Positions 1 through 62,111 of a stretch of 64,000 nucleotides of DNA are shown one piece after another; position 1 is the stretch's first letter, and every line of letters starts with the position of its first letter. This stretch comes from Pseudemcibacter aquimaris (GTDB lineage: Bacteria > Pseudomonadota > Alphaproteobacteria > Sphingomonadales > Emcibacteraceae). Position numbers and translations under genes: made by a program. The stretch spans positions 2,703,501 to 2,767,500 of the forward strand of contig NZ_CP079800.1 of assembly GCF_028869115.1 (NCBI RefSeq), given 5' to 3'. Under the pieces are notes generated by a model, which worked only from the letters and a program-made list of their open reading frames with translations, did no database searches and was not told where the DNA came from.

Positions 1-2
1 AC

Positions 3-4798: not shown

Positions 4799-4807
4799 GA
4801 GAAAACA

Positions 4808-7273
4808 TTGCTATTAAATCATATCCATATGGCGTTTAGAAGCATCCTCAAACAACGCCTTTATAGCACGATCAACATCGTTGGATTGGCTGCGGGACTT
4901 GCCGTTGCAATCCTAATTATCCTGTTTGTTAATCACGAAAGCAGTTTCGATAGCAATGTGCCAAACAATGATCGTGTTTACCGTCTGAATTGGGAAAGCA
5001 CATCAAGCGGCGCAAGATTTGCCACATTTTTTAATCCGTTATCCCCGGTTATTGCGGATGCATACCCAAATGACGTGGAAGATGTAAGTCGCATTGCGCT
5101 AACAGAAAGTTTGCTAACCATTGGTGATAATAAATTATATCAAACGGTTAGTTTTGTTGACCCTAATTATTTTGAATTTTTCGGAAACAATTTCATTCAA
5201 GGTAATCAAAACGCATTAAAGAACCAGAATAATATGGTTTTAAGCCGGATTGCCGCCGACACCCTATTCCCCGGCGAAAACCCAATTGGAAAAACTATCA
5301 CAATCGATGGTCAGCACGATTTTCAAGTCACTGCGATTATCGAAAATAATGAAAGCAACAGTCATCAGGTTTCAAACATTTATGCCCATATGGAAATGTT
5401 ACCTGTCGTCTGGAATGATGACACATTTTGGGAACGTAATTTTTCCGATCAGCTTTATCATTATATAAGATTGGCACCAAATGTAAGTGGTGACACATTC
5501 GCCGCCAATGCCCATAAATATATCAAAGATAACATTAGCAGCGATTTCGCAGAAGATTTGGGCGTTTATGCACAAAGTTTAAAAGACATTCATTTCAATA
5601 CTGAATTACAAAATGAAATGACCGTTCGCGATACAATGACCGGACTTTCAAAGCCGGGCAGACAGAAATCTGATATTTCCATTTTTGCCATTGTCGCCAT
5701 TTTGGCGATTGTGATTGCCACGTTTAACTTTGTGAATATGCAAATCGCACAAAGCAGCAATAGAACAAAAGAGGTCGGCGTCAGAAAAGTACTTGGCGCA
5801 AGCAGAAAACAAATCGCCGCACAGTTCATTGTGGAATCAACCCTGATGGCTTTAATCGCGCTAATCTGTGCATTGGTTCTTGTGGAAATGTTCTCACCAT
5901 TTTTTGGCAGCATGCTTGGTGTTCCACTTACGGCTGCGGCTGTATATAACGTCGCCTTTATGGGTGGGTTGATATTACTTGCGGTTATGGTTGGCATTAT
6001 ATCCGGTCTTTATCCTGCCCTGATTGTCTCTGGTATTTTACCGGCTATCGCGGTTCGCGGGCGTGCCTTTAACGGTGTTGGCTCAGCAAAGCTGCGCGCT
6101 ACATTAGTGGTGATGCAATTTGCCATTGCCATCGGGCTAATGTCCGCAACTGGCATTGTGAATGATCAGATCAACTTTGCACTTAATGGTTCACTTGGGT
6201 ATGAGCCAGAAAATGTCATCACGGTAAGCTTAAATAACAGCGAAGCGAGAAACGCATATCAAACCATGCATGATCAGCTGCTTGCTAATCCAGCGATCTC
6301 AGCTGTATCAAGCGGATCAATCATCCCGACGGGTGATTTATCGGATGGTTCCGTCTTTCAAAAAGAGGGTGAAGCACCAGATTTTCAAATCATTACACGT
6401 CGCGTCAGCGTAAATGACGGATATTTCGATACGCTTGGCATGGAAATGGCCGCGGGCCGTCCATTAAGCAAGGATTTCCTTGGTGATATTATGCCAAACT
6501 TTTCACCGGAAAATCCGACGGTCAGCGGTGGTATTATTTTAAACGAAACCGCCGCTCGTCAAGCCGGATGGACCGACCCCAATAATGCCGTCGGCGAACA
6601 AATTTATACTGCGTTTTCATTTGGTGGTACGGATTACCGTTTAAACTTCAATATTGTTGGAATTGTAAAAGACATTCATTTTGGATCCGTTAGATCAGAG
6701 CCTGCCTCCCTTTCCTTCCTCATGACAGAAGGTGTCGGTAATAAAATGGTGATTAAAGCAGAGGAAGGCGCATTAAACGCCGCAACCGCAGCCATTGATA
6801 ACATCTGGGCGCAACATGTCACTGAATACCCAATCCGCAGAACATATCTGGAAGAAGATTACGCATCCTTCTACGCCGTAGAAGGTCGTGTCTTCAGAAT
6901 GTTTATTGGCTTTGCAGGAATTACGGCAATGATCGCTTGTATCGGTTTATATGGCCTTGCCAGTTTCATCGCAGATCGCCGCACCAAAGAAATCGGCATC
7001 CGCAAGGTTCTTGGCGCATCTGTTATGAACATTGTCACCATGTTATCATGGGAACTTTCAAAATTAGTATTGATTGCCAATGTCATCGCATGGCCCGTTG
7101 CATGGATCATGATGAATGATTGGCTAATGGCATTTAACACTCGCATTGATATGAGCATCCTGCCTTATCTAATCGCTGGTGTTGTTGCCTTCGTACTTGC
7201 ATATGCCACCACATCCATCAAGGCATGGGGTGCGGCAACCATTAATCCTGTTTATTCACTTAAAAGCGAATAG
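4808..7273 (+). CDS. FtsX/MacB-type ABC transporter permease (821 aa)
   Basis: This is the third paralogue of the array, with the same layout: an N-terminal helix, a periplasmic domain, an FtsX domain (RTKEVGVRKVLGAS), a second periplasmic domain and a second FtsX domain (RRTKEIGIRKVLGAS). The start is TTG, chosen because AGGAGA sits a few bases upstream and the resulting N-terminus (LLNHIHMAFRSILKQRLYSTINIVGLA) aligns with the neighbours. It begins 9 bases after the preceding stop. The C-terminus NPVYSLKSE departs from the NPIxALRYE form of the others, a sign of divergence. Substrate and ATPase partner are unknown. Confidence 0.94.
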   Translation: MLLNHIHMAFRSILKQRLYSTINIVGLAAGLAVAILIILFVNHESSFDSNVPNNDRVYRLNWESTSSGARFATFFNPLSPVIADAYPNDVEDVSRIALTESLLTIGDNKLYQTVSFVDPNYFEFFGNNFIQGNQNALKNQNNMVLSRIAADTLFPGENPIGKTITIDGQHDFQVTAIIENNESNSHQVSNIYAHMEMLPVVWNDDTFWERNFSDQLYHYIRLAPNVSGDTFAANAHKYIKDNISSDFAEDLGVYAQSLKDIHFNTELQNEMTVRDTMTGLSKPGRQKSDISIFAIVAILAIVIATFNFVNMQIAQSSNRTKEVGVRKVLGASRKQIAAQFIVESTLMALIALICALVLVEMFSPFFGSMLGVPLTAAAVYNVAFMGGLILLAVMVGIISGLYPALIVSGILPAIAVRGRAFNGVGSAKLRATLVVMQFAIAIGLMSATGIVNDQINFALNGSLGYEPENVITVSLNNSEARNAYQTMHDQLLANPAISAVSSGSIIPTGDLSDGSVFQKEGEAPDFQIITRRVSVNDGYFDTLGMEMAAGRPLSKDFLGDIMPNFSPENPTVSGGIILNETAARQAGWTDPNNAVGEQIYTAFSFGGTDYRLNFNIVGIVKDIHFGSVRSEPASLSFLMTEGVGNKMVIKAEEGALNAATAAIDNIWAQHVTEYPIRRTYLEEDYASFYAVEGRVFRMFIGFAGITAMIACIGLYGLASFIADRRTKEIGIRKVLGASVMNIVTMLSWELSKLVLIANVIAWPVAWIMMNDWLMAFNTRIDMSILPYLIAGVVAFVLAYATTSIKAWGAATINPVYSLKSE

Positions 7274-7287
7274 AAAAGAGAAACGTT

Positions 7288-9723
7288 ATGTTTAAAAATT
7301 ACATCAAAGTCGCAATCAGAAGCATCTTGAAAAACAAGCTTTATGCCGTGATTAACATTTTGGGGCTCTCTATCGGGCTTGCTATTTATATGTTTGGTTC
7401 GCTTTTTGCAGAATATGAAAAAACGCATGACTTAAGTTTTCAAAATGCGGAACGTATTTACACCATTCGCGGTGATGTGAACCCGCAATCCAATCTTGGA
7501 CTTAATCAAATTGATGGCGTTCAGGGGGCCGTTGGACCGCTGATTAAATCTGACCTTGAACAGGTTGAGGCCGTGGCCCGCACGATTTTCAGGGAATTTC
7601 TGGTAACCGTTGGCGAAAATAATTTTTATCAAAACGTACGCTTTGCCGATCCGGAATTACTGGACATATTCGAACTAACGTTCCTGCAAGGAAACCGTAC
7701 GGCACTGGATGGTTCAAACAGCGTGATAATTTCCACCACGATGGCCGAAAAATTCTTTGGTGATACTGACCCAATGGGGAAAACCATTACACTGGATCAT
7801 GAACATGATTTAACGGTTGCGGCCGTGATTGACGAACTACCCGCTAATACACACTTTAGCGCAGGTTTCGCAAGTGAAATGACAAGACCGCTTGATGTTA
7901 TCGTTCCTGTACGTGCCATGGAACGTATTACAGAATTCCAACCTGATACAAACTGGGGCAGTACATCTATGGGTAACCTGACCTACGTGCTGTTACCCGA
8001 AAACCTGGATAGGGACTGGCTACAAACACAAATGGATGGTATTTATGAACGCCACATGCCAGAAGATCAACGTGACTTCCTGTCTGGATTTAACGTACGA
8101 CCATTACAGGAACAAAATATGGCTTTATGGGCGATGCTGGGACTTCCTGTCATTGATGTCGTACAAGTTCTAGGTATTGTTGTTCTGGTCATTGCTTGCG
8201 TGAATTATACGAACCTTGCCGCAGCACAATCAATGGGACGCGCACGTGAAGTGGGCCTAAGAAAAACGCTGGGTGCAAACAAGAAACAATTGCTGACCCA
8301 GTTCCTGGTTGAAAGCATGACGATAACGTTTTTCTCATTGCTGCTTTCGCTTTCCGTGCTTGAATTAATCATTCCTATGTTCAATGCAGCATCAGGCAAG
8401 GTTCTCACAATTAACTATATTCAAGAACTTCCATGGTTGATCGCTACCACCATGGTTGTCGGTGGTTTTGCTGGCAGTTATCCGGCTTACCTGATCACCA
8501 AAACCAACCCAATTGATGCATTACGTGATAGTGCTAGAAAAGGCCGTGGCGCATCACTCATTAGAGCGATCATGATTGGTGTACAATTTACATTCTCTGT
8601 ATGTATTCTAGCGATGGTTTTGGTTGTTTATCAACAAAACTCGAAAGTGGAAGAAAGCAGCCGCATTTTCCCGAAAGATCAGATTTATACTTTGAACCGT
8701 TTAAATGTGGATCAAATGGAAGATCGCCATGAAGTACTTAGAAATGAAATGATGAATGTCCCCTATGTGGAAAACTTTACTCTTTCGTCACAGGTTCCTT
8801 ATGAACAAACAAATACATCGATTAATGCTTCACGTATTCTAAATGATTTTGAATCAACAATCAGTCTGCATCAGATCAATATCGATGACAGCTTTGCTGA
8901 TACTTATGACATTCCATTTGTTGCAGGCAGGGATATTTCAAAAGAATATGCCAAAGACACCCACATCCGCGAAGATGGTGAGGTAAATGTTTTAATTAAT
9001 GAAACGGCCGTAAGGACCCTTGGCTTTGAAAGTGCAGACGCAGCCGTTGGACAAGTTTTCTACGAAGACGAAGGAGATGAAAGAGGCATCACCACTTACA
9101 CAATCGTCGGAGTTATGGCCGATAGAAATATTCTTGGCCTATTTAATGTTGTTAAACCAACCTTCTTTTTCATGAGACCTGGTTCATACAGACTTGCGTC
9201 TGTGAAAATTTCGAAAGACGCGCCGATCAGTGTCGTTCGTGATATTGAAGATGCATGGGCAACTGTTTATGCCGACTATCCGATGCAAGGTCAGTTCTTA
9301 AATGAAATATTCCAGATGGTTTATATGCTTTTTGAATTGGCCACATCAACACTTGGTTCAATTGCATTTGTCGCACTGGCACTTGCTTCATTTGGTCTCT
9401 TTGGTTTAGCTGCCTTTATGGCGGAACAAAAAACCAAAGAAATCGGTATCCGTAAAGTTCTAGGCGCGAGCAATAATCAAATCGTTAGACTGCTGATCTG
9501 GCAATTTTCAACACCAGTGTTATGGGCAACACCCATTGCACTTGGCATCGCATTCTTTGCATCCAGCCAGTATCTAAATTTCTTTGCGGAACGTATTGGC
9601 CTTCCTTATGGTATGCTGATCGGTGCAGGCATTGTGGGTATTCTGATTGCCGCCGCAACCGTCGCAACGCACGCATTTAATGTGGCAAAAACCAATCCGG
9701 TTAATGCATTGCATTATGAGTAA
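7288..9723 (+). CDS. FtsX/MacB-type ABC transporter permease (811 aa)
   Basis: This is the fourth paralogue and the last before the gamma-glutamyltranspeptidase gene. It has the dual periplasmic-domain, dual FtsX layout. The first FtsX signature is REVGLRKTLGAN, the second is QKTKEIGIRKVLGAS, and the end is NPVNALHYE. It starts with ATG behind AGAGAAA, 14 bases after the previous stop. The first periplasmic domain is the most divergent of the four (N-terminal NILGLSIGLAIYMFGSLFAEYEKTHD). Four such genes in a row suggest stepwise duplication and assembly of different permease pairs, but pairing is inference. Confidence 0.94.
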   Translation: MFKNYIKVAIRSILKNKLYAVINILGLSIGLAIYMFGSLFAEYEKTHDLSFQNAERIYTIRGDVNPQSNLGLNQIDGVQGAVGPLIKSDLEQVEAVARTIFREFLVTVGENNFYQNVRFADPELLDIFELTFLQGNRTALDGSNSVIISTTMAEKFFGDTDPMGKTITLDHEHDLTVAAVIDELPANTHFSAGFASEMTRPLDVIVPVRAMERITEFQPDTNWGSTSMGNLTYVLLPENLDRDWLQTQMDGIYERHMPEDQRDFLSGFNVRPLQEQNMALWAMLGLPVIDVVQVLGIVVLVIACVNYTNLAAAQSMGRAREVGLRKTLGANKKQLLTQFLVESMTITFFSLLLSLSVLELIIPMFNAASGKVLTINYIQELPWLIATTMVVGGFAGSYPAYLITKTNPIDALRDSARKGRGASLIRAIMIGVQFTFSVCILAMVLVVYQQNSKVEESSRIFPKDQIYTLNRLNVDQMEDRHEVLRNEMMNVPYVENFTLSSQVPYEQTNTSINASRILNDFESTISLHQINIDDSFADTYDIPFVAGRDISKEYAKDTHIREDGEVNVLINETAVRTLGFESADAAVGQVFYEDEGDERGITTYTIVGVMADRNILGLFNVVKPTFFFMRPGSYRLASVKISKDAPISVVRDIEDAWATVYADYPMQGQFLNEIFQMVYMLFELATSTLGSIAFVALALASFGLFGLAAFMAEQKTKEIGIRKVLGASNNQIVRLLIWQFSTPVLWATPIALGIAFFASSQYLNFFAERIGLPYGMLIGAGIVGILIAAATVATHAFNVAKTNPVNALHYE

Positions 9724-19148: not shown

Positions 19149-20159
19149 GTGACAATGCAATATACAAAATATAACGATTACTTTGAATGGCCGAGAATGC
19201 CTGGGGAAGATCTCATTTTAATTAATGACATGTATCTTCAGTTATTAGATACGCAATGGCAATCTCTTCAGGAAATTCGACAGGGCCAAACAAAACAATT
19301 GGAATTTTTACTTGGGTTTGCAAGAAACAATGCGGCTTATTTCGCCAATATGGCCTCTAATTTTGATATGCAGAAAGCGCGCAATTTTGCTGATTTATGG
19401 AAACAAGTTCCTATAACATCAATACAACAAATTGCCCAATCCGGAAATACCATGATATTGCAAAATATGCCGGAAAAGCATGGAAAAAAACTACCTCTCG
19501 AATTAATATCTACAGTTCACCCGCCTGTAAAAATTGTCGTGAGTCAGTATTGGATGGCAATACGCAATGCATGATTTGCCCGCCTTTTTCATGATTTTAA
19601 ATGGGATCAAAAAAATACGCTCGTCGACATTTCAATCGGCAATGTTCAAGTAAGTACGGCCAATCAAAATGGCTGGAAACTTGCTAAAGAAAGTGGTCTT
19701 GGAATTAATGGTCAACTTAATCTTGAGGAAAAATCACTTCCTGAATGGTTGAATGACATTCAAGAAAACTTTTACTGTCGTACAAACGTTCTGATTTTAG
19801 AAAAACTGCTAAAGCATTATGAAAATGACGAACTAAAAAACTGGCAAGGCGGTATCGTTTTTGTATCGAATAATGCTCACCTTAAAATCTGTGAAAAAGC
19901 AAAAGATAAAGGCCTTTCTATCATTCCAGTCCTTATTCAAAAAGGGTTCGGTATGATAGCTGCTGCTTGTCCAGAAGAAGGAAATCTTCATGTACAATCA
20001 GATTCAGTTTTACTGGAAAACATAAATGGTAGTGTTGTCGCCTCTTCACTTCATAATTTTGCGATGCCGCTTATCAGGGTCGCATCTGGGTTACCAATTA
20101 GCCCCAGAGAACCATGCAAATGCGGACGCGGGTTAGAAACGATTAAGTTTCTTCAGTAA
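19149..20159 (+). pseudogene. Degenerate PaaK-like adenylate-forming ligase with in-frame TGA
   Basis: One frame runs from GTG at 19149 to TAA at 20157-20159, interrupted by a single TGA at 19572-19574. The parts before and after align in order with the intact ligase on the opposite strand: SLQEIRQGQTKQLEFLLGFAR with its N-terminal region, CPEEGNLHVQSDSVLLE with CPESGLLHVQGDNVYLE, and FAMPLIRVASG with TAMPLIRYELG. The ATP-binding SSGSTGEPV of the intact copy is replaced by TVHPPV, and the C-terminal lid domain (about 100 residues) is missing. The TGA probably replaced a Trp codon. It overlaps the intact gene's 3' end by 17 bases, tail to tail. This reads as a decaying divergent paralogue. Confidence 0.8.
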
Positions 20160-21525
20160 CTTCGCTGATAATATCCCTTAATTTTCCGCCATCTTTTTGC
20201 GGAATGTCATCAACGCGTTCCAGTGTGACATTAAAATTAAAAGTAGGGAACATTTCCTCACCTGCTTTAATCATGCGGTTCTGGATATCTTCTGATAGCG
20301 GCTCATCAGAAACATATCTAAGTACAATGTCATCATATGTTTTTTGAACATATTGCAATTTACGAACGTCAATAAAGGCATCTTTATCGCTTAGGTTCGT
20401 AATCGGTCTTACCCGATCACCACCACGCAACCGTATTAAGTCACGCGTACGTCCCAGAATGTTTGAAATTGTCATTTGCTGTCTGCCGCAGCTACAGTCG
20501 GGCCCGGCTTCAGCAACATCACCAAGTTCGTATCTTATCAGTGGCATTGCTGTATTCGTCAGACTAGTCACGATCACTTTGCCATTTTCACCCGGTTTGG
20601 CATCAGTTCCATCATCCTTGATAATTTCCAAATAAACATTATCACCCTGTACATGCAAAAGCCCACTTTCCGGGCATTCAATAGCAATACATCCTGTTTC
20701 ACGGCTCGCATATTTATCGGATAACTTCGCGCCGCATACCTCTTCTGCCATTTCTCTAAGGCCAAGCATCGTTGGTTCACCATAAAGCAGAAAATGTTCT
20801 ACGGACGATATGTCAATTTCATGCTTCTTGGCATATTGGATCATTTCCTTGGTATAGGAAGGATAAGTAACCACATATTTTGGTCTGACTTCCGATAACC
20901 ATTTCACTTTTTTGGCAAGTGATAATGAAACGTTATTCACATAATAATCATTATCGGGATAATTAAGATGCCAACCATGCGTATGCTGAAAATCATTATC
21001 CCCTTTTTGATAAAGTTTAGACGTAAAATAACCCATGGGCTGACTGCCATCTAAACCAACCCAATCATACCACCTGCGTTGCAGCACAACATTTACTTCA
21101 TTCAGATAACTCGACATTTTTGTTTTTACAGGCTCACCCGTTGAACCGGATGATATATTTTCGTAAATCGGCCCTCTTTCCAAAGACAAATCAGTAGTTT
21201 GTAGTTTCTCAAAATTATTTTGAAGATCAGCACGCTTTAAAATTGGTAGCTTTTTAAATTCTGTTAAATCAATTCCCTTTTCACTATCGATCTTCAAGCC
21301 ACTTAAACGCTTCATGTAAAAAGGTGTTGTTTTACGTGCAAATTCGCATAACTTTCCAAGTTGACGACACTGAGCCTCAAGAATTTGTTCCTTGCTCCAC
21401 CACTGTGTTTTTTCCAACTGGTCAGAGATAACCGATAGCGTTGATGATGAAGAGCCGTTTACCGCGGGCCACACCATTCCGGGAATAGCACCGGGAATTA
21501 GTAAATCAGGAGAATAATTTTTCAT
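20143..21525 (-). CDS. Phenylacetate-CoA ligase-like (PaaK/CapK) adenylate-forming enzyme
   Basis: The 460-residue protein has the adenylate-forming P-loop SSGSTGEPV at 125-133, the motif YASRETG near 293, LLHVQGDNVYLEI, AMPLIRYELGD, a CSCGR zinc-type motif, and the hinge GRTRDLIRLRGGDRVRP leading to the C-terminal lid. PaaK-family enzymes activate carboxylic acids as AMP esters for transfer to CoA or another acceptor in the cytoplasm. The substrate is unknown. It stands alone on the minus strand, separated by a terminator from the upstream small acidic gene, and meets a broken relative tail to tail. The full set of motifs suggests it is active. Confidence 0.85.
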   Translation of the reverse strand: MKNYSPDLLIPGAIPGMVWPAVNGSSSSTLSVISDQLEKTQWWSKEQILEAQCRQLGKLCEFARKTTPFYMKRLSGLKIDSEKGIDLTEFKKLPILKRADLQNNFEKLQTTDLSLERGPIYENISSGSTGEPVKTKMSSYLNEVNVVLQRRWYDWVGLDGSQPMGYFTSKLYQKGDNDFQHTHGWHLNYPDNDYYVNNVSLSLAKKVKWLSEVRPKYVVTYPSYTKEMIQYAKKHEIDISSVEHFLLYGEPTMLGLREMAEEVCGAKLSDKYASRETGCIAIECPESGLLHVQGDNVYLEIIKDDGTDAKPGENGKVIVTSLTNTAMPLIRYELGDVAEAGPDCSCGRQQMTISNILGRTRDLIRLRGGDRVRPITNLSDKDAFIDVRKLQYVQKTYDDIVLRYVSDEPLSEDIQNRMIKAGEEMFPTFNFNVTLERVDDIPQKDGGKLRDIISEVTEET

Positions 21526-54228: not shown

Positions 54229-56316
54229 ATGAAAAATCTATTTATGGCGCTGGGGGCGATTGCGACAAGCTTTGCCACCTTCGGTGCTGTAGCAGAGGAA
54301 CCAGGCACCGCAAACGGTGAATGGCATCACTATACTGGTGATGTAAAAGGTTCCCGCTATACGCCGCTTGATCAAATCAATGCGGACAACTTTGAAGACC
54401 TTGAAATGGTCTGGAACTTTTCAACGAAAAATCTTGGTACACGCGGCGAATATAAGCTTGAAGTAACACCGATTATGGTTGATGGCGTGCTTTACGCGAC
54501 GGCAGGCACGCGCCGTACGGCAATCGCCCTTGACGGTGCAACAGGGGAATTAATGTGGCTTCACAGTATGCGCGAAGGCCTTCGTGCGGGTATGGCCCCA
54601 CGTCAACTATCCGGTCGCGGTCTTGCCTATTGGTCAGACGGCAATGGCGACAATCGTGTTTTCTATGTGACAACAGGATATAAACTTGTTGCCCTTAACG
54701 CGCAAACTGGTGTTCCAATTGATAGCTTCGGAACAGATGGTAATGGTATTCTTGACCTTAAAATCGGTGCTGTTCAAGGCAACGAAGTACAGATCGACCT
54801 TGTGACCGGTGAAATCGGTCTTCATGCGACACCAACTGTTGCCGGTGATCTGATCATCGTGGGTTCCGCGATGAAAGAAGGCATGACCATTGATAACTAC
54901 AACAACACCAAAGGTCTTGTTCGCGCATTCGACGTCAGAACAGGCGAAAAAGTATGGCAGTTTGACCCAATTCCACGTCCGGGCCAATTCGGTAACGACA
55001 CATGGCTTGATAATTCATGGGAACGCAATGGTAACACAGGTGTTTGGACACAAATCACTGTAGACGAGAAAAACGAGCTAGTTTTCCTAGCGGTTGAAAG
55101 CCCTGCGTCTGACTTCTACGGCGGTCACCGTCCGGGTAACAACCTGTTTGGTGAAAGTCTTGTTGCTGTTGATCTAAAAGACGGTTCTTACAAATGGCAT
55201 TTCCAAGTGGTTCACCATCCAATTTGGGACCATGACCTGTCATCTGCCCCACTTGTCATGGATGTAACCATTGATGGTCAAGAACGTGAGATTATCGCGC
55301 TTCCAACAAAGCAGGCATTCATTTACGCGTTTGACCGTATTACAGGCGAGCCGATTTGGGATATTCCTGAAATGCCAGTACCACAAGGCAGCGTGCCGGG
55401 CGAATGGTATTCACCAACACAACCAATGCCACCAATGCATCTAATGTATGGTCGTGGTAAGTTGGATCTGCCGAATGATCTGATCGACTTTACACCGGAA
55501 ATGCGCCAAGCAGCCCTTGATAAAATGCATCACTGGGACTGGAGCAACGGTGGAATGTATAACCCACCAATCGAAGGTGATGTAAATGGCCTTCTTGGTG
55601 CGATTAACATTGGTGCGACATCTGGTGGTACAAACTGGCCGGGTGCGTCATTCGATCCTGAATCAGGTATCGTATATGCACCAGCATCACAAGTATTCCT
55701 TGATAACCTATCACTGGCACCACCGCCAGAGGGCTACTCAAACGTGAACTATATGGCCGGCCGTAAAGGTGAGCCATTCCGTATGCGTAATGCAGCGGGT
55801 ACAGGTCAAAACCCTGATGCACCGGATGAAAAGCCGCAGTTCGAAGAATACGACTGGAGCAAACCACCAGTTGATATGCCATCTCTTTCAGTAGAAGGCC
55901 TTTCAATTCTGAAGCCACCATATGGCGTTCTTTCAGCGATTGACATGAACAAAGGTGAAGTGATCTGGAAAGTGCCACACGGTGAAACACCAGATAACGT
56001 TCGTAATCATCCAAAACTACGTGATCTTGACATTCCACGTACTGGCCAAGGCGCCAACGTTGGCGTGGTTGTGACCAAGACACTTGTGATTGTTGGTGAT
56101 CAGCGCGTAACGAACCCTCGTGACCGTGAACGCGGCGCGATGCTTCGTGCATATGACAAAATGACTGGTGATCATGTTGGTGAAGTTTGGATGCCAGCGG
56201 GTCAATCCGGTTCACCGATGTCATACCAAATCGATGGTAGACAATATATTGTTGTGGCTGTTAGTGGCGGTGCATATCCGGGTGAATTCCGTGCATATGC
56301 CCTACCTGAAGATTAA
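54229..56316 (+). CDS. PQQ-dependent (quinoprotein) dehydrogenase
   Basis: The protein is an eight-bladed quinoprotein with a signal peptide (cleavage near AVA-EEP, residue 22), acting in the periplasm. WHHYTGDVKGSRYTPLDQIN at the start, NGNTGVWTQITVDE, YKWHFQVVHHPIWDHDLSSAP, GATSGGTNWPGASFDPESG and the C-terminal GSPMSYQIDGRQYIVVAVSGG are family features of the PQQ glucose/alcohol dehydrogenase group. No CxxCH heme site is present, so it lacks the cytochrome domain of quinohemoproteins. The start at 54229 follows GGAGG and exposes the signal peptide. It has its own promoter and a strong terminator. No pqq biosynthesis genes are in the window. Confidence 0.92.
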   Translation: MKNLFMALGAIATSFATFGAVAEEPGTANGEWHHYTGDVKGSRYTPLDQINADNFEDLEMVWNFSTKNLGTRGEYKLEVTPIMVDGVLYATAGTRRTAIALDGATGELMWLHSMREGLRAGMAPRQLSGRGLAYWSDGNGDNRVFYVTTGYKLVALNAQTGVPIDSFGTDGNGILDLKIGAVQGNEVQIDLVTGEIGLHATPTVAGDLIIVGSAMKEGMTIDNYNNTKGLVRAFDVRTGEKVWQFDPIPRPGQFGNDTWLDNSWERNGNTGVWTQITVDEKNELVFLAVESPASDFYGGHRPGNNLFGESLVAVDLKDGSYKWHFQVVHHPIWDHDLSSAPLVMDVTIDGQEREIIALPTKQAFIYAFDRITGEPIWDIPEMPVPQGSVPGEWYSPTQPMPPMHLMYGRGKLDLPNDLIDFTPEMRQAALDKMHHWDWSNGGMYNPPIEGDVNGLLGAINIGATSGGTNWPGASFDPESGIVYAPASQVFLDNLSLAPPPEGYSNVNYMAGRKGEPFRMRNAAGTGQNPDAPDEKPQFEEYDWSKPPVDMPSLSVEGLSILKPPYGVLSAIDMNKGEVIWKVPHGETPDNVRNHPKLRDLDIPRTGQGANVGVVVTKTLVIVGDQRVTNPRDRERGAMLRAYDKMTGDHVGEVWMPAGQSGSPMSYQIDGRQYIVVAVSGGAYPGEFRAYALPED

Positions 56317-56337
56317 TCGGGTAAACATAATTATTTT

Positions 56338-56366
56338 AAAGGGAGCGTTCAGCGCTCCCTTTTTTT
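56338..56366 (+). terminator. Rho-independent terminator after the PQQ dehydrogenase
   Basis: AAAGGGAGCG (56338-56347) pairs with CGCTCCCTTT (56353-56362) around TTCAG, and the T-run goes on to 56366. It overlaps the stop codon of the convergent ligase gene and may stop transcription from that side weakly. Confidence 0.88.
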
Positions 56367-58122
56367 ATTGATGTTCAACTTTTCCACAGAATTGTGAAAG
56401 CCAACTTTCAAGATTTTTGTGATCGGTATATTCCGCGATGACATCATCATAATTGACGTTTTTATCAACGATACAGCGATCAAAATAATCCAGAGGCAAA
56501 CCCGTTTTCATTAGATCATCCGCCCTCAAAGAAACGACAATTGCATCACATGATTTATTCAGCACCAGTGTTTGACAGTTATTCGCCAAAGTATCATGCA
56601 ACTGACTTAATCTTCCGCTTTCGAACATCGCAAATTCGTGACAGGCAAAGCCGCATTTATCATGTTTTTCAAGGTTGCTCTTATAATAATTCAGCGCTAT
56701 TTCATGATGATCCGCAATAAACAATGTTGTATCAATCCGGCCTTGCGTTTCCCCAAAATAATTTTCCATAATTCTGTCCCCAAATGCCAGGACAGACCCC
56801 GGGTAGGCATTCACTTCAATAATTGCCCCATTATCACGCCAAGATTTTGAAATATCTGTTGAAATCATATCTATTCCTACAGAATCCAACCGAAACGTTT
56901 TACAAATATCTTCGGCCATTTCCACTGTATCTGGATGCATATCTTCGATATTTATAGGTTCTTTTGTGCCCCCGGCATGCCTGTTCACAATGTCAGTCAG
57001 CAATACCTCTTGCCCTTTATCAGGAATACTATTGCCATTCAAATTGGCGTTTCTCAAATTCCTAGTAACACGTTCATCGAATTGAATGTCTTTAAGCAAA
57101 AATTTCGCATTTTTTAATTCTTTGCGCCGTCTGTTTTCAACATCAATCAATTCTTTTACCGTTGAAATTCCGTCCCCAAAAACCTTTGCACCAGCGCAGA
57201 TATCAACGCCAAGTATCTTATTTTTTGAAAGTGTAATACGGTATAAATCACCATCAATATGTTTTTCTACAACAACCCCATCTGATGACAATTTCGATGC
57301 TAGCGAAAATGCGTCTCGGGCTTGCTCCAATGTCTGAATATTTGCCGTTACACCATTACCCATTCCTTCTGATAATGGTTTGATTACGACAGGAAAATTT
57401 ATCTGCCTTATTGCATCAACGCACATTTGAAAATTTTTGACCACAGCTTGTTCAGGGGTCGGATACCCAATACGCTGTAACACATTTACAGTGAGTGACT
57501 TACTATCCTGTAACCTATAGCCAATTTGGCTATCAAGTTCTGTCAAACCATAATCAAAAATTTTCGAATGGATACCCTGACCAAACACAGTAAAAGGTGT
57601 AGTTTCTAGCAATAATAAAAAAGGAATATTTTTTCTTTTCGCTGCATTTCTAAATTTTTGAGTAAGTTCAGAAGGTGACCAATAAATCAAGAATTGAGAA
57701 AGTTCATTTATTTTTGTCACAAACGGCACAGGAGGGGTTTCAATATCTGATTTAATAAATTGCATAATCAGAACCGCTGTTTCCACAGCATTCTTCATCG
57801 CCAAAGCATTGTCATATTCTGCAACAAGCCTATTCACACCTGATTTTAAGTGCTGAACATTTGTATTCATATTTTGATGTTTTTGAAACTGAAAGAAAAC
57901 ATTTACCAATGACACTAACAAATCATGAACATTATTTTTTTCATTATTTACTAATTTATCTGATAACGGTTTAGGCAATATTTTATGCAGTTTCTGAATT
58001 TCATTTGCCGATATCTCAAAACCGTTTCCAAAAGTGGCCTGATCATAATCAAACAACACCGATTTTGAATTCGAATATAAACTTGGGCCAGATGTGATTT
58101 TAATTTTCAATTTATTATTCAT
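56365..58122 (-). CDS. CphA-like ATP-grasp ligase with degenerate M domain (copy B)
   Basis: The 585-residue protein follows the cyanophycin synthetase plan. An N domain covers about 1-150. The ATP-grasp domain at about 205-455 has KPLSEGMGNGVTANI, VVEKHIDGDLYRI, VFGDGISTVKELIDVENRRR and IIEVNAYPG with Glu436 and Asn438. Residues 460-556 resemble the first part of the Mur-ligase-like M domain (DAIVVSLRADDLMKTGLPLDYFDRC), but the P-loop GTNGKTTT position reads ADHHEIALN, so this site is dead and the rest is missing. The architecture recalls CphA2, which joins pre-made Asp-Arg dipeptides. The gene overlaps copy A by eight bases. The product is unknown. Confidence 0.82.
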   Translation of the reverse strand: MNNKLKIKITSGPSLYSNSKSVLFDYDQATFGNGFEISANEIQKLHKILPKPLSDKLVNNEKNNVHDLLVSLVNVFFQFQKHQNMNTNVQHLKSGVNRLVAEYDNALAMKNAVETAVLIMQFIKSDIETPPVPFVTKINELSQFLIYWSPSELTQKFRNAAKRKNIPFLLLLETTPFTVFGQGIHSKIFDYGLTELDSQIGYRLQDSKSLTVNVLQRIGYPTPEQAVVKNFQMCVDAIRQINFPVVIKPLSEGMGNGVTANIQTLEQARDAFSLASKLSSDGVVVEKHIDGDLYRITLSKNKILGVDICAGAKVFGDGISTVKELIDVENRRRKELKNAKFLLKDIQFDERVTRNLRNANLNGNSIPDKGQEVLLTDIVNRHAGGTKEPINIEDMHPDTVEMAEDICKTFRLDSVGIDMISTDISKSWRDNGAIIEVNAYPGSVLAFGDRIMENYFGETQGRIDTTLFIADHHEIALNYYKSNLEKHDKCGFACHEFAMFESGRLSQLHDTLANNCQTLVLNKSCDAIVVSLRADDLMKTGLPLDYFDRCIVDKNVNYDDVIAEYTDHKNLESWLSQFCGKVEHQ

Positions 58123-59869
58123 TTATTTCAACATTTCCACAGTATTGAGAAAGCCAATTTTTAAGGTTTTTATGATCAGTTAATGCCTCAATTTTTTTAT
58201 CGATATCTATACCCTGACCAATAATACAACGATCAAAATAATCAAGCGGCAAACCATTGGCGATAATTTCATCAGGCCTAATTGATACAACAAGAGCATC
58301 ACAACTTTTATTCAGAATAAAAGCTTGGCAATAATGTCCTAATCCATTTTTTACGACTTTCAAGGCTCCCGTCTTAAATTCAGCTGTAGTTTTTGATGCG
58401 AAACCAGGGTTTTCGAATTCATTCATTTTTTGATTAAAAATTTTTCTGGCGGCTTCATCATTTTCTGAAACGATTAATGTTGTATCAATTCTTCCTTCGC
58501 TTTTACCAAAGTGTTTCTCTAAAAATTTGTCTGCAAGATCCGGTGCGGCCATCGGATAACAATTTAATTCAATAATGACCCCGACCTCTCGCCAGGATTT
58601 TGAAATATCCGGCGAAATGACATCAATACCTATACTATCAATCCGGAAAAGTAACGAAACCTGCTCGGATAATTCGATATAATCCGGGTGCATATCATCA
58701 ATATTTAGCATTTCGAGAGTACCACCAGCACTGCGATTTGCAATATCACCTAAGATCACTCTTTCACCCTGCTCTGGTATGGTATCCAAAGTATATCCAA
58801 GATTGGTTAAATTCATCTTCAAGCGTTCATCGTGCATTATTTGCTTCACTTTTAAAGCTGCAAGTTCCGGCTCTTTTCTACGGATATTTTCTTTTTCAAT
58901 GAGCGTTTTTATGTTCGACACACCATCCGCGATGACCTGCGCAGGATAACGCCTCGCAAGTCCTAAAACCTCCCCACCAGAGGCCGTAATCCTATGAACG
59001 TCACCCTCCACATGTTTTTCAATCAAAACTTGTTGAGGTGAACATTTATTTGCCTCTTGAAACGCCACTAATAATTGCTCAATCGTTCTGATATTAGCGG
59101 TCACACCAAGGCCACCGCCTTCGCTAAGCGGTTTTATGACGACAGGAAACCCTAACTTGTTTGCTTCCGCAACACACATATCAGGAGAATTAACTATTCT
59201 CTGTTCACTTGTTGGGTAACCAGTTTTCTCCAACAATTCATTGGTAATTGCTTTACTTTTTTGAAGTGTGAAGCCAATAAAACTATCTAGTTCACTGGCA
59301 GAATAATTGAAAATACGGCCATATTTTCCCTGTCCGAAAGAATAAGTATATGAATCATTGACCAGTAACCTTACCGGAATGTTTCGTTCTTTAGCTTTCA
59401 TCAGAAATCCTTGAACGACATTGCCAGCGGCCCATTTTTTAACATATTCAATCATCCTATTAATTTGTCCGATTGCCTGTGGCGCAGCCATTCCTTCCTT
59501 TAACCCTGCCACTTTTAATGTCATCGCAGCCGCCCTTATCGACATAACAGTTCTTCGTTGATTATTATATTCACAGCATAGAATATAATTTCCACCCCCT
59601 TGATCGCTGACTTTAATAAAGTGCTCAATCGGCACGCCAATATTATGCAATGCACTAACAATCATCGGTAATAAATCATGTATTGTTTGAATATTTTCAA
59701 AATTTAGTTCCGCTCTCAAATAGGGTGGTAATATTTTTGAGATTTTAGAAAGATAGTTTGGTGAAACATCAAAATTGCCGCCAAAATCATCTGCGCAATA
59801 TTCAAAGCAGACAATTTTTGAGGAATGTTTTAAAGAAGGGCCAAAGGTTACAGTAATTTTATTATTCAT
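58115..59869 (-). CDS. CphA-like ATP-grasp ligase with degenerate M domain (copy A)
   Basis: This 584-residue paralogue of copy B has the same three parts. The N domain includes GGNYILCCEYNNQRRTVMSI, the ATP-grasp domain includes KPLSEGGGLGVTANI, LIEKHVEGDVHRI and IIELNCYPM (Glu434, Asn436), and the stunted M domain reads ALVVSIRPDEIIANGLPLDYF. The P-loop position again has no GK(S/T) (SENDEAARK). Compared with copy B and CphA, the Pro-Gly after the Asn is Pro-Met, so the active sites have diverged. It is first in the pair. The DNA looks A+T-rich. Amide-bond formation on an amino acid or peptide is the best inference. Confidence 0.82.
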   Translation of the reverse strand: MNNKITVTFGPSLKHSSKIVCFEYCADDFGGNFDVSPNYLSKISKILPPYLRAELNFENIQTIHDLLPMIVSALHNIGVPIEHFIKVSDQGGGNYILCCEYNNQRRTVMSIRAAAMTLKVAGLKEGMAAPQAIGQINRMIEYVKKWAAGNVVQGFLMKAKERNIPVRLLVNDSYTYSFGQGKYGRIFNYSASELDSFIGFTLQKSKAITNELLEKTGYPTSEQRIVNSPDMCVAEANKLGFPVVIKPLSEGGGLGVTANIRTIEQLLVAFQEANKCSPQQVLIEKHVEGDVHRITASGGEVLGLARRYPAQVIADGVSNIKTLIEKENIRRKEPELAALKVKQIMHDERLKMNLTNLGYTLDTIPEQGERVILGDIANRSAGGTLEMLNIDDMHPDYIELSEQVSLLFRIDSIGIDVISPDISKSWREVGVIIELNCYPMAAPDLADKFLEKHFGKSEGRIDTTLIVSENDEAARKIFNQKMNEFENPGFASKTTAEFKTGALKVVKNGLGHYCQAFILNKSCDALVVSIRPDEIIANGLPLDYFDRCIIGQGIDIDKKIEALTDHKNLKNWLSQYCGNVEINE

Positions 59870-59892
59870 TTTTAGTATTTTCTTTTTTATTT

Positions 59893-60624
59893 CTAAAATA
59901 ATTTAAATTGGTCTTTGCTGGCTGGTTTAATACATTCTTCCCCATCATTTCTTGCATTATTTACAAATGGGCTGACTTCGTACATTTCCAACTTCAAATC
60001 AATATCGGTTGATAGTTTATCAAATATCTTCCTATCAGGTGGATCTTCGGGTCTAAGCCATAAATCATAATCCTGCGGTTCAATAATAACAGGTGATCTA
60101 TGATGAATTTTCTTAACGACACCATTTGCTGGCTTTGTGATCAGTGAAACTGTTTCTAGCCAATCATCGCCATTTGGTCCTGTCCATGCTTCCCAAATCC
60201 CAGCAAATGTAAATGGTGCATGATCTTGCAAACAAATATGATATGGAATGGGCGACGCACCATCCCTTTTCCATTCGTAAAAACCATCTGCCGGAACAAG
60301 ACATTTTCGTCTTCTGAACGGGCCGCGAAATGACGGTTTATCCGCAATTGTTTCTGAACGTGCATTTATAAGCGGGCGATCATTTTTTATCTCTTTGGCA
60401 AAATGCGGTACAAGCCCCCAACGCATCAATGCCCCTTCCCGTTCTGGAAGTGGCGCATCCGGAATAATGGCCTGATCTTTATCTGATCCTTTTAAACGGA
60501 TCACGGCAACAGGTTGGCTGGGCGCAATATTAAACCTGGACGGCACCTTGAACGGATACCCCATGTCCATAAATTCAATAAAACTATTATATGCCTCGCT
60601 TGCTAAAGAGTATCTTCCACACAT
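59893..60624 (-). CDS. SRAP-domain protein (YedK/HMCES-like abasic-site DNA-protein crosslinker)
   Basis: The 243-residue protein starts MCGRYSLA, so Cys2 becomes N-terminal after Met removal and can form the thiazolidine crosslink with abasic sites in single-stranded DNA. RFNIAPSQPVAVIR, RWGLVPHFAKE, NARSETIADKPSFRGPFRRR, RCLVPADGFYEW-like CLVPADGFYEWK and HHRSPVII (active-site His) are present in family order. It protects stalled replication sites. It lies 23 bases upstream of the ligase pair on the same strand, so co-transcription is possible though unexplained. Divergent from it is a NUDIX gene. Confidence 0.95.
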   Translation of the reverse strand: MCGRYSLASEAYNSFIEFMDMGYPFKVPSRFNIAPSQPVAVIRLKGSDKDQAIIPDAPLPEREGALMRWGLVPHFAKEIKNDRPLINARSETIADKPSFRGPFRRRKCLVPADGFYEWKRDGASPIPYHICLQDHAPFTFAGIWEAWTGPNGDDWLETVSLITKPANGVVKKIHHRSPVIIEPQDYDLWLRPEDPPDRKIFDKLSTDIDLKLEMYEVSPFVNNARNDGEECIKPASKDQFKLF

Positions 60625-60676
60625 TCTTATTATTCGCTATAGTGATTTCAATAAGATAATAAACGAAAAAAATCAT

Positions 60677-61111
60677 ATGAAAAGAGAGTATCCCAAAAGA
60701 CCCATTCCCGGTGTCGGTGTTGTCGTTTTTAACGGTGAAAAAATCCTATTAATCAAACGTAACAAGGAACCAAAAGCAGCAGAATGGAGCATTCCAGGCG
60801 GTGCCCAAGATCTTGGTGAAACATTGACAGAATGCGCTATGCGCGAAGTTAATGAAGAAACCGGTATTAAGATAGAAAATATCACACTCTTAAAAGCCGT
60901 AGATTACATTGATAAAGATGAAAATAATGATATCCGCTTTCATTATAGTTTAATCGATTATATGGCCGATTATAAATCGGGTGATTTGGTCGCAGGCGAC
61001 GATGTCCTTGACGCAAAATGGGTTCACATCAATGATTTTAAAAGCTATAACCTTTGGCAGGAAACAATCGATTTAATAGAAGACGCAATTGTACATAGAC
61101 GATCCAAATAG
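60677..61111 (+). CDS. NUDIX hydrolase
   Basis: The 144-residue protein has the complete Nudix box at 42-64 (GAQDLGETLTECAMREVNEETGI) in the pattern Gx5Ex7REUxEExGU, after PGVGVVVFNGEKILLIKR. It hydrolyses a nucleoside diphosphate linked to some moiety, using Mg2+. The start at 60677 is chosen since similarity begins at RPIPGVGVVV; an upstream ATG in the frame runs into the SRAP gene on the opposite strand. The substrate is unknown, possibly ADP-ribose or a damaged nucleotide. It overlaps a small membrane-protein frame at its 3' end. Confidence 0.92.
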   Translation: MKREYPKRPIPGVGVVVFNGEKILLIKRNKEPKAAEWSIPGGAQDLGETLTECAMREVNEETGIKIENITLLKAVDYIDKDENNDIRFHYSLIDYMADYKSGDLVAGDDVLDAKWVHINDFKSYNLWQETIDLIEDAIVHRRSK

Positions 61112-61250
61112 CAAACCCCCACAAAGCTTGCCAAAACGCTTTATTACAAGCTTTGGAAGGCATATAAAAGTATTGTTGATCGCTGCAGGATTCTCAACAA
61201 TCGCTTATGGGTCCATGTATTTGCTTCTTATGTGGGCCGGAAGAATTTAG
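61089..61250 (+). CDS. Possible 53-residue single-helix membrane protein
   Basis: A TTG-initiated frame overlapping the NUDIX 3' end by 23 bases encodes a basic N-terminus (LPKRFITSFGRHIK) and one hydrophobic helix (VLLIAAGFSTIAYGSMYLLL) ending MWAGRI. AGAAG lies upstream. It ends ten bases before the DUF2842 gene. The positive-inside layout argues for a real small protein, but the start is uncertain and no family is recognised. An alternative TTG is 13 codons further in, just before PKRF. Confidence 0.4.
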   Translation: MYIDDPNSKPPQSLPKRFITSFGRHIKVLLIAAGFSTIAYGSMYLLLMWAGRI

Positions 61251-61260
61251 AGTATAAAGA

Positions 61261-61491
61261 ATGAACGAAAATCCACCGCCAAAAATAAGTAAACTTCTGT
61301 GGCTACTTTTAATGCTGGCAGTCATGACCATCTATATTTTATTGGTCGCGCGTCTTATTGATGCCTTATTTGCCGGAAATATTATCATGGAATTGATCAG
61401 CTATATTCTGGCTGGCATCATCTGGGTTTTCCCAGCAAAAAAAATAATGTTTATCATCAATAGAACGGATACTGATAACGGGGATCAATAA
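61261..61491 (+). CDS. DUF2842 small membrane protein
   Basis: The 76-residue protein has two membrane helices (LLWLLLMLAVMTIYILLVARL and LISYILAGIIWVFPAKKIM). The feature GIIWVFPAKKI matches the end typical of DUF2842, a family almost limited to Alphaproteobacteria and without known function. AAAGAATG carries the start. The stop overlaps the next ATG by one base (TAATG), coupling it to the EipA-like lipoprotein. Confidence 0.82.
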   Translation: MNENPPPKISKLLWLLLMLAVMTIYILLVARLIDALFAGNIIMELISYILAGIIWVFPAKKIMFIINRTDTDNGDQ

Positions 61492-62111
61492 TGGGCAATT
61501 TCATCAGGCTTCTATCACTGTCTTTTGTTTTTATTCTTTCGGCATGTGCCAGCAATAACACGGAAAATTCTGCACCGCCACAGCGTTCCGCGGCGGAACG
61601 CCCAAATATGAATTCAGCAGACCCAAATAGCACCTATGACAAAGAAAATGTCATCAATGCCGCATCTGAATTTTTCGGCGAAGGATCAGAAGCCGTTGCA
61701 AGTGTTATTGAAAAGGCATTTGCCGATCTTGGCCGCCCTAACGGATATATCATTGGTACAGAAGCAAGCGCCGCTTTAATCGTCGGTGCCCGTTATGGTG
61801 ATGGTGTTCTTTCCCACAAAATAGAAGGCGACACCAAAGTATACTGGAAAGGGCCATCTATCGGCATTGACGTTGGTGCCAATGGATCACGTGTATTTGC
61901 GCTTGTGTATAATTTGAACGATACACAAGAGCTGTATCAGCGTTTCCCGGCCGTTGAAGGAAGTCTTTATTATGTCGCCGGTGTGGGAATGAATTACCAA
62001 CAGGTTGACGAAATCGTTATTGCACCAATTCGCATGGGCGTTGGCCTGCGCGCGGGCGTTAATCTTGGGTACTTACATTTCACCAAAGAAAGAAGCTGGA
62101 ACCCGTTTTAA
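61491..62111 (+). CDS. EipA-like (DUF1134) envelope integrity lipoprotein
   Basis: The 206-residue protein matches DUF1134/EipA, a periplasmic beta-barrel-like envelope protein of Alphaproteobacteria needed for cell-envelope integrity. The family region runs from about residue 60: EFFGEGSEAVASVIEKAFADLG, GYIIGTEASAALIVGARYGDG, VYWKGPSIGIDVGANGSRVF, VAGVGMNYQQ and GVGLRAGVNLGYLHF. A signal peptide ends in the lipobox LSAC (Cys19), so this copy is probably a lipoprotein, whereas known EipA is processed as a soluble periplasmic protein. It is coupled to the DUF2842 gene by TAATG. Confidence 0.9.
   Translation: MGNFIRLLSLSFVFILSACASNNTENSAPPQRSAAERPNMNSADPNSTYDKENVINAASEFFGEGSEAVASVIEKAFADLGRPNGYIIGTEASAALIVGARYGDGVLSHKIEGDTKVYWKGPSIGIDVGANGSRVFALVYNLNDTQELYQRFPAVEGSLYYVAGVGMNYQQVDEIVIAPIRMGVGLRAGVNLGYLHFTKERSWNPF

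Follow-up and report, generated by a model that had tools for sequence, protein, structure and literature searches.

This report concerns two overlapping genes in a 64,000-nucleotide stretch of the genome of Pseudemcibacter aquimaris (contig NZ_CP079800.1, positions 2,703,501 to 2,767,500; the whole stretch is called the window below), which encode short ligases related to the cyanophycin synthetases. Few ribosome-independent amino-acid polymerases are understood as well as the cyanophycin synthetases. The two genes, B upstream and A downstream, are listed with adjoining features in Table 1; they are the open reading frames of 584 and 585 codons, with an N domain, an ATP-grasp (G) domain and a stunted Mur-type (M) domain, that an earlier note on this DNA had described, and their proteins are 43% identical from end to end. 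Their 8-base overlap makes translational coupling likely. They are not a lone pair but belong to a family of ten paralogues in this genome, a single contig of 3.37 Mb; the other eight are an array of four at 743-751 kb (p9_1 to p9_4), a pair at 1.41 Mb (p10_up and p10_dn) and single copies at 2.11 and 2.52 Mb (p11 and p12), and identity to gene B within the family is 30-43%. The main new result is that the acceptor pocket of these paralogues comes in two types that differ in a coordinated manner, with B and A on opposite sides of the split.

Table 1. Features of the ligase locus in window coordinates; pocket residues are numbered within each protein
Feature	Position	Strand	Remarks
Gene B, upstream copy	58115..59869	-	584 aa; N domain, ATP-grasp G domain, truncated M domain
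Gene B acceptor pocket, CphA1-like	H292, R307, N378, S380	-	alignment
Gene B R307, at TeCphA1 Arg323	58949..58951	-	alignment
Gene B N378-R379-S380, spanning TeCphA1 Asn394 and Ser396	58730..58738	-	alignment
Gene A, downstream copy	56365..58122	-	585 aa; domain layout as gene B
Gene A acceptor pocket, altered	Y294, C309, N380, H382	-	alignment
Gene A C309, at TeCphA1 Arg323	57196..57198	-	alignment
Gene A N380-R381-H382, spanning TeCphA1 Asn394 and Ser396	56977..56985	-	Ser replaced by His
Overlap of gene B stop and gene A start, 8 bp	58115..58122	-	
Strong hairpin and T-run in the gap where the PQQ-dehydrogenase gene and gene A converge	56338..56362	+	
SRAP-family gene, ending 23 bp upstream of gene B	59893..60624	-	same strand as gene B

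Fold, catalytic core and acceptor pocket

The top NCBIfam matches of both proteins are cyanophycin synthetase models, which cover no more than the N and ATP-grasp domains and score 201-228 bits, with cut-offs of 850-877 and E-values of 2e-59 to 2e-67, and the likeness is far above chance; to the CphA1 model itself, TIGR02068, the pair scores 214 and 201 bits, short of the cut-off of 850. N-acetylglutaminylglutamine synthetase (TIGR03103, 106.2 and 108.9 bits against 569) and GshF (GshF-type model NF002688, 94 bits against 425) have an ATP-grasp domain related to that of the pair, at scores far under their cut-offs. AlphaFold models of the single proteins (mean predicted local distance difference test 93.1 for B and 90.8 for A) have as closest solved structure the CphA1 7wae (Z 28.4 for B and 29.0 for A), which is matched over chain residues 1-619; with CphA1 (7wae and 7wac of TeCphA1, 7lgm, 7lgn) the pair shares the N and G folds, the start of M and the ATP-grasp core. 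The CphA2 of Gloeothece citriformis (7ta5) gives Z 25.7 and 26.5 to the B and A models, nearly end to end; the family profile aligns from 7 to 566 with 13 to 570 of 7ta5 and matches both CphA2 sequences of the PDB over nearly their full length.

In PMC9427784, CphA2 is defined by an N and a G domain and a truncated M domain without P-loop and Mlid. The pair has this layout, as the earlier note had proposed, the loss of Mlid being judged from length only. Where the family profile aligns at the GTNGKT of TeCphA1 the position is empty in the pair, and the P-loop pattern G[TS][NK]GK[TS] is found in none of the ten paralogues. What is left is a C-terminal stub corresponding to the first part of a Mur domain, 126-151 residues long in the family from TeCphA1 position 458 onward (CphA1 median 467). 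Because the Gly, Leu, Pro, Asp and Phe of its GLPxDxF motif are invariant in all ten paralogues, the stub does not resemble a decaying remnant; with F or L as last residue, the motif occurs in 23 of 69 short rows and 0 of 57 CphA1-type rows. These and the following counts come from a family set of 125 proteins and four PDB segments; the survey of relatives, which kept the best 80 loci of genome_contigs, is a sample, and genes in neighbouring loci were called by simple scripts, with errors possible in GC-rich contigs. Residue counts leave out L105 (a gene already represented by L016), L083 (at 655 aa below the other P-loop proteins in length) and L102 (in-frame stop), and include L042 with CphA2, following its placement in the trees; CphA1-type rows are those with a P-loop plus the 7wac and 7lgm segments, and the 69 short rows of the motif counts (GLPxDxF and the SW motif discussed below) still include L042 and L102. 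The last, a short CphA-like ligase of genome G405, has a TGA in frame within the match and is likely a pseudogene or an assembly error.

PMC9427784 assigns K220 and K261 of TeCphA1 to ATP, D431 and E450 to Mg, and R309 to the acyl-phosphate and oxyanion; R323, N394, S396 and R458 lie at the incoming aspartate, whose carboxylate is contacted by R323 (the Ala mutant is impaired), while the partner protomer contributes E215, in contact with the primer's Arg side chain. By alignment, the equivalents of K220, K261, R309, D431, E450 and N452 are retained in all ten paralogues and in the single copy of a congener, G008, so that neither gene of the pair has lost any of these six ATP-grasp core residues; the two would presumably be active amide ligases with an intact-looking core. 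The pair does depart from CphA1 in lacking the Mur active site, the HxxEH zinc motif, Arg458 and His267 of the ATP-grasp P-loop (replaced by G in B and by M in A; 51 of 56 CphA1-type rows have His). It also has no acidic residue at position 215 (T in B, R in A), which is acidic in 51/56 CphA1-type and 3/3 CphA2-type rows (D, D, E) versus one of the 11 family rows and two of the 56 other short rows.

Eight columns split the paralogues cleanly: 308, 322, 323, 393 and 396, in or next to the acceptor pocket, and 133, 197 and 338 elsewhere. The His, Arg, Asn and Ser of the CphA1 aspartate site (H308, R323, N394, S396) are all retained in B, p9_1, p9_3, p10_up and p10_dn. Positions 308, 323 and 396 are changed together in A, p9_2, p9_4, p11, p12 and the congener copy, none of which six has R323, N394 and S396 jointly; at the three changed positions the types thus read H/R/S versus Y/non-R/non-S, and are called R and non-R here. 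The combination R323, N394 and S396 is present in 55 of 56 CphA1-type and all three CphA2-type rows, and R323 is likewise retained by 52 of the 56 other short rows. Read in the order of transcription, the array of four runs R, non-R, R, non-R, and the pair in the window runs R (B), then non-R (A). A and B are sisters in the G-domain tree (99/96), yet have opposite pocket types, and the fewest changes at position 323 that the lineage requires is two. The divergence that the earlier note saw in Pro-Gly versus Pro-Met (EVNAYPGSV in A, ELNCYPMAA in B, at TeCphA1 Gly456) is real, and wider than it had stated, since several pocket residues differ together.

With its aspartate-site residues changed, gene A should take another nucleophile. 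The loss of R323, the residue whose Ala mutant impairs TeCphA1, could also mean that gene A and its like are catalytically idle partners that regulate or scaffold the R-type copy; we consider this unlikely, as the six core residues for ATP, Mg and acyl-phosphate, which an idle copy would not need, are present in 6/6 non-R rows, and p11, p12 and the congener copy are solitary.

Distribution of the family and its kinship to CphA2

Among 60 relatives searched with gene B at 1e-40, matches were found only in the congener G008 and in G048, of the same order. Among the order's 396 genomes, the family profile at 1e-100 detected none but the window genome and G008, which are two of the genus's 13; of 387 genomes of the class, 21 matched it at 1e-60, the best outside the genus scoring 289 bits versus 620 for the congener copy (up to three candidates per genome were kept in these profile searches, which makes copy numbers per genome lower bounds). 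In none of the seven other congeners read does the site of the array, between a YhhQ-type transporter gene and xthA, hold a ligase (one of the contigs, L141, stops short of xthA). Between the window genome and G008, identity is 67-89% for six neighbouring genes and no more than 39% for the ligases. The congener copy is placed inside the paralogues in both trees, so that the duplications may be older than the species split, or evolution may have been very fast, or there may have been transfer between species. The interval from the YhhQ-type gene to xthA (L009, L138, L140-L146) is a variable insertion site, occupied according to species by ligases, an amino-acid permease, an AraC-type regulator or nothing. 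A phage or virus origin was rejected: viral_contigs gave no relatives and phage records two partial matches. By record titles, short relatives occur in Pseudomonadota, Chlorobiota, Campylobacterota and Cyanobacteriota. A literature search by title and start of abstract returned nothing on these short non-cyanobacterial ligases, most subscription journals lying outside its coverage, so that such work may exist.

The earlier note had taken the genes for a duplicated CphA2-type pair, and this part of its interpretation is not supported as stated. The two CphA2 sequences of the PDB and L042 make up a separate clade (100/100) in the G-domain tree and in the full-length tree (65 rows each; compared with an 82-row tree having 13 CphA1-type rows, three further long-branch rows were left out and the larger short clade was thinned), and the pair is outside it in both. 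In the G-domain tree CphA2 lies within CphA1, and the ten-copy family has a different place, grouped with five short proteins from other bacteria (100/98); the full-length tree makes CphA2 sister to the family and those five (95/86), and a joint clade of CphA2 and the family is not rejected by the G domain (p-AU, the approximately unbiased test, 0.47). The five nearest relatives outside the genus are L060 (gene at 1047), L049 (gene at 8185), L098, L101 and L120 (100/98 by G domain and 93/78 by full length), joined in the 82-row tree by L033 (gene at 4877), later left out as a long branch. Like the other short CphA-like ligases they have the truncated layout without P-loop, and R323 is retained in 5/5, but identity to gene B is 20-24% (measured for L049, L098, L101 and L120) and L060 has an added methyltransferase domain.

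CphA2 is thus the closest characterised relative of the pair by architecture, and perhaps by descent. In addition to the truncated layout, the core residues and the position in the full-length tree, CphA2 (7ta5; 8fxh and 8fxi of Stanieria) shares with the pair the Trp of the SW motif (DISKSW/DIGRSW), found in 57/69 short rows, 2/2 CphA2 and 3/56 CphA1-type rows. That B and A are themselves CphA2-type enzymes is nevertheless quite improbable: besides the separate clade, the pair has lost the acidic residue 215 and lacks the GHKG His of the glycine loop, gene A is without the R323 and S396 present in all CphA2-type rows, and the beta-Asp-Arg dipeptides that such enzymes polymerise would have no supply, the whole genome having neither a CphA1 above the TIGR02068 cut-off nor a match to cyanophycinase (TIGR02069). 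The same absences, together with the loss of acidic 215, make it unlikely that the pair makes cyanophycin, and here the earlier note, which had remarked on the lack of an adjacent cyanophycinase and proposed another product, is upheld.

Partners, relatives' loci and neighbouring features

A different way to account for the missing Mur site is that the pair supplies one half of a split cyanophycin-like synthetase, with the Mur ligase half coming from a gene at another place. Related arrangements can be pointed to: in L060 the gene immediately upstream of the related ligase is a Mur ligase gene truncated at the contig end, and a Mur match slightly below cut-off lies near the related ligase of L049. 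The genome, however, has only five Mur-type genes, which from position and size we take to be the ordinary MurE, MurF, MurC, a MurD-like enzyme and FolC; a Mur partner elsewhere was rejected on this ground, and we rate the split synthetase as very improbable. The L060 locus (1-5611, a Comamonadaceae metagenome-assembled genome) reads, in a row, Mur ligase gene, short ligase with methyltransferase domain, second short ligase and, by eye, AMP-binding gene. Near p12 (1.9 kb away, L012:4625-7202, about 2.52 Mb in the window genome, G000), a 442 aa protein without Pfam match stands beside a MurD-like ligase, presumably the MurL/MurD2 route.

The earlier note had in view a survey of paired homologues. 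Of 33 short-ligase loci counted (L064 later fell with CphA1), five have two ligases (L032, L033, L049, L059, L060), and in four of these five the two copies do not have the same set of four acceptor residues. The surroundings of the relatives are biosynthetic, with methyltransferases, P450, TauD, glycosyltransferases, AMP-binding, chorismate-binding and other genes, but share no common product. In another of the 33 loci, from Paracoccus chinensis, a single gene (L076:8167-13464, 1765 aa) is a natural example of two such ligases as one unit: two CphA-like ATP-grasp ligases, both with the core residues and with differing acceptor residues, are fused to a PGA_cap capsule-synthesis domain. This gene adjoins type I secretion-like genes (by eye), and a Microvirga ossetica plasmid protein named as CapA family matches gene B over 89% of its length. 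A capsule partner for the pair was rejected despite the fusion, there being no PGA_cap gene in the window genome.

Other candidate links were also rejected. A small exported cupin is found beside the array and the congener copy, but also in G005, G006 and G007, where no ligase was found; an asparagine-synthetase-like pair beside the congener ligase (L138, opposite strand) was judged unconnected, the window genome having short partial PF00733 matches only; and a defence role fell because none of three other proteins had a PADLOC value below 0.01, that of gene B (0.0081) being taken as chance among four proteins.

At the locus itself, the SRAP-family gene may share a transcript with gene B, though a functional tie is unlikely. 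The hairpin beyond gene A has a terminator score on the plus strand only; on the minus strand, directly past the gene A stop, the stem has no T-run after it. Promoter-like sites near the two genes number 20, hardly above the shuffle mean of 17.7, and no Rfam match at gathering level occurs in 55500-61500. The window has a second tandem family at 51-9723, made up of four permease-like proteins in a row that resemble one another (764-821 aa; MacB/FtsX-like by eye), and at 20143-21525 a PaaK-like AMP ligase whose best NCBIfam match, flexirubin FlxY, is below cut-off; in L132 a short ligase has near it an AMP-binding gene of about that size.

A proposed pair of complementary ligations

From sequence, predicted fold and gene order we infer activity, substrates, co-operation and product as follows. 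Each ligase would activate an acceptor chain at its C-terminal carboxylate, or a small acid, by phosphorylation and join an incoming amine to it, neither having a Mur-type second active site. Gene A, its aspartate site altered, would take a different nucleophile from gene B; the two would be translated together and possibly assembled as a mixed oligomer. The pair would then carry out two complementary ligations, with two ATP-grasp sites in place of the ATP-grasp and Mur sites of CphA1, and the product would be an amide-linked peptide or polymer other than cyanophycin. One ligation per copy, as the earlier note had suggested, fits the data. Taken as a full mechanism, this account of B and A as complementary ligases is tentative, with a chance that we put a little short of even.

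Several observations weigh against it. Ser396 (28/56) and Tyr308 (30/56) vary widely across the other short ligases, so that the loss of R323, which is rarely lost there, is the distinctive change. Only 4 of 462 label splits gave as many clean columns (three marker columns) in a permutation, a figure that is partly circular in that columns 308 and 323 had suggested the type labels to begin with, and it is not rejected that the non-R type arose only once (p-AU 0.10). All ten paralogues are without His267, to which stabilisation of the CphA1 acyl-phosphate is ascribed, and Arg458, which holds the aspartate alpha-carboxylate, is lost in gene B too, as also in CphA2. The two copies of L049 carry identical acceptor residues, and no dedicated neighbour genes were seen for the pair; by eye, the open reading frame lists show no methyltransferase, P450 or TauD-type biosynthetic genes beside any of the ten copies. 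Nor is the pairing of R with non-R universal, the p10 pair being two R-type copies and two paralogues being solitary.

These last exceptions would be expected if the paralogues were independent small-molecule ligases, each making its own dipeptide or amide (an osmolyte, signal or secondary metabolite), with the tandem arrangement a result of duplication only, and the neighbours of some of the wider short ligases (methyltransferase, P450, TauD, AMP-binding and chorismate-binding genes) resemble those of metabolite clusters. Such independence fits less well with the alternation of acceptor types in the array and the presence of one of each in the A/B pair, with the 8 bp overlap of B and A, and with the Paracoccus fusion of two ligases; we hold it to be possible, though doubtful. 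A bolder form of the complementary-ligase account would make the pair a Mur-free peptide polymerase of two ATP-grasp protomers, one adding an acidic amino acid and the other a second building block to give an alternating polyamide distinct from cyanophycin, the ten genes providing several differently tuned sets; this is speculative, and we would sooner doubt than believe it.

A ten-copy family that retains the ATP-grasp chemistry of cyanophycin synthetases without their Mur site, and has two pocket types in tandem, would show how such enzymes gain new products, and residues 308, 323, 394 and 396 would be a short list from which to predict and re-tune the incoming building block. Naming such proteins cyanophycin synthetases from their best match would mislead, as the match of B and A to that best curated model is far under the cut-off.

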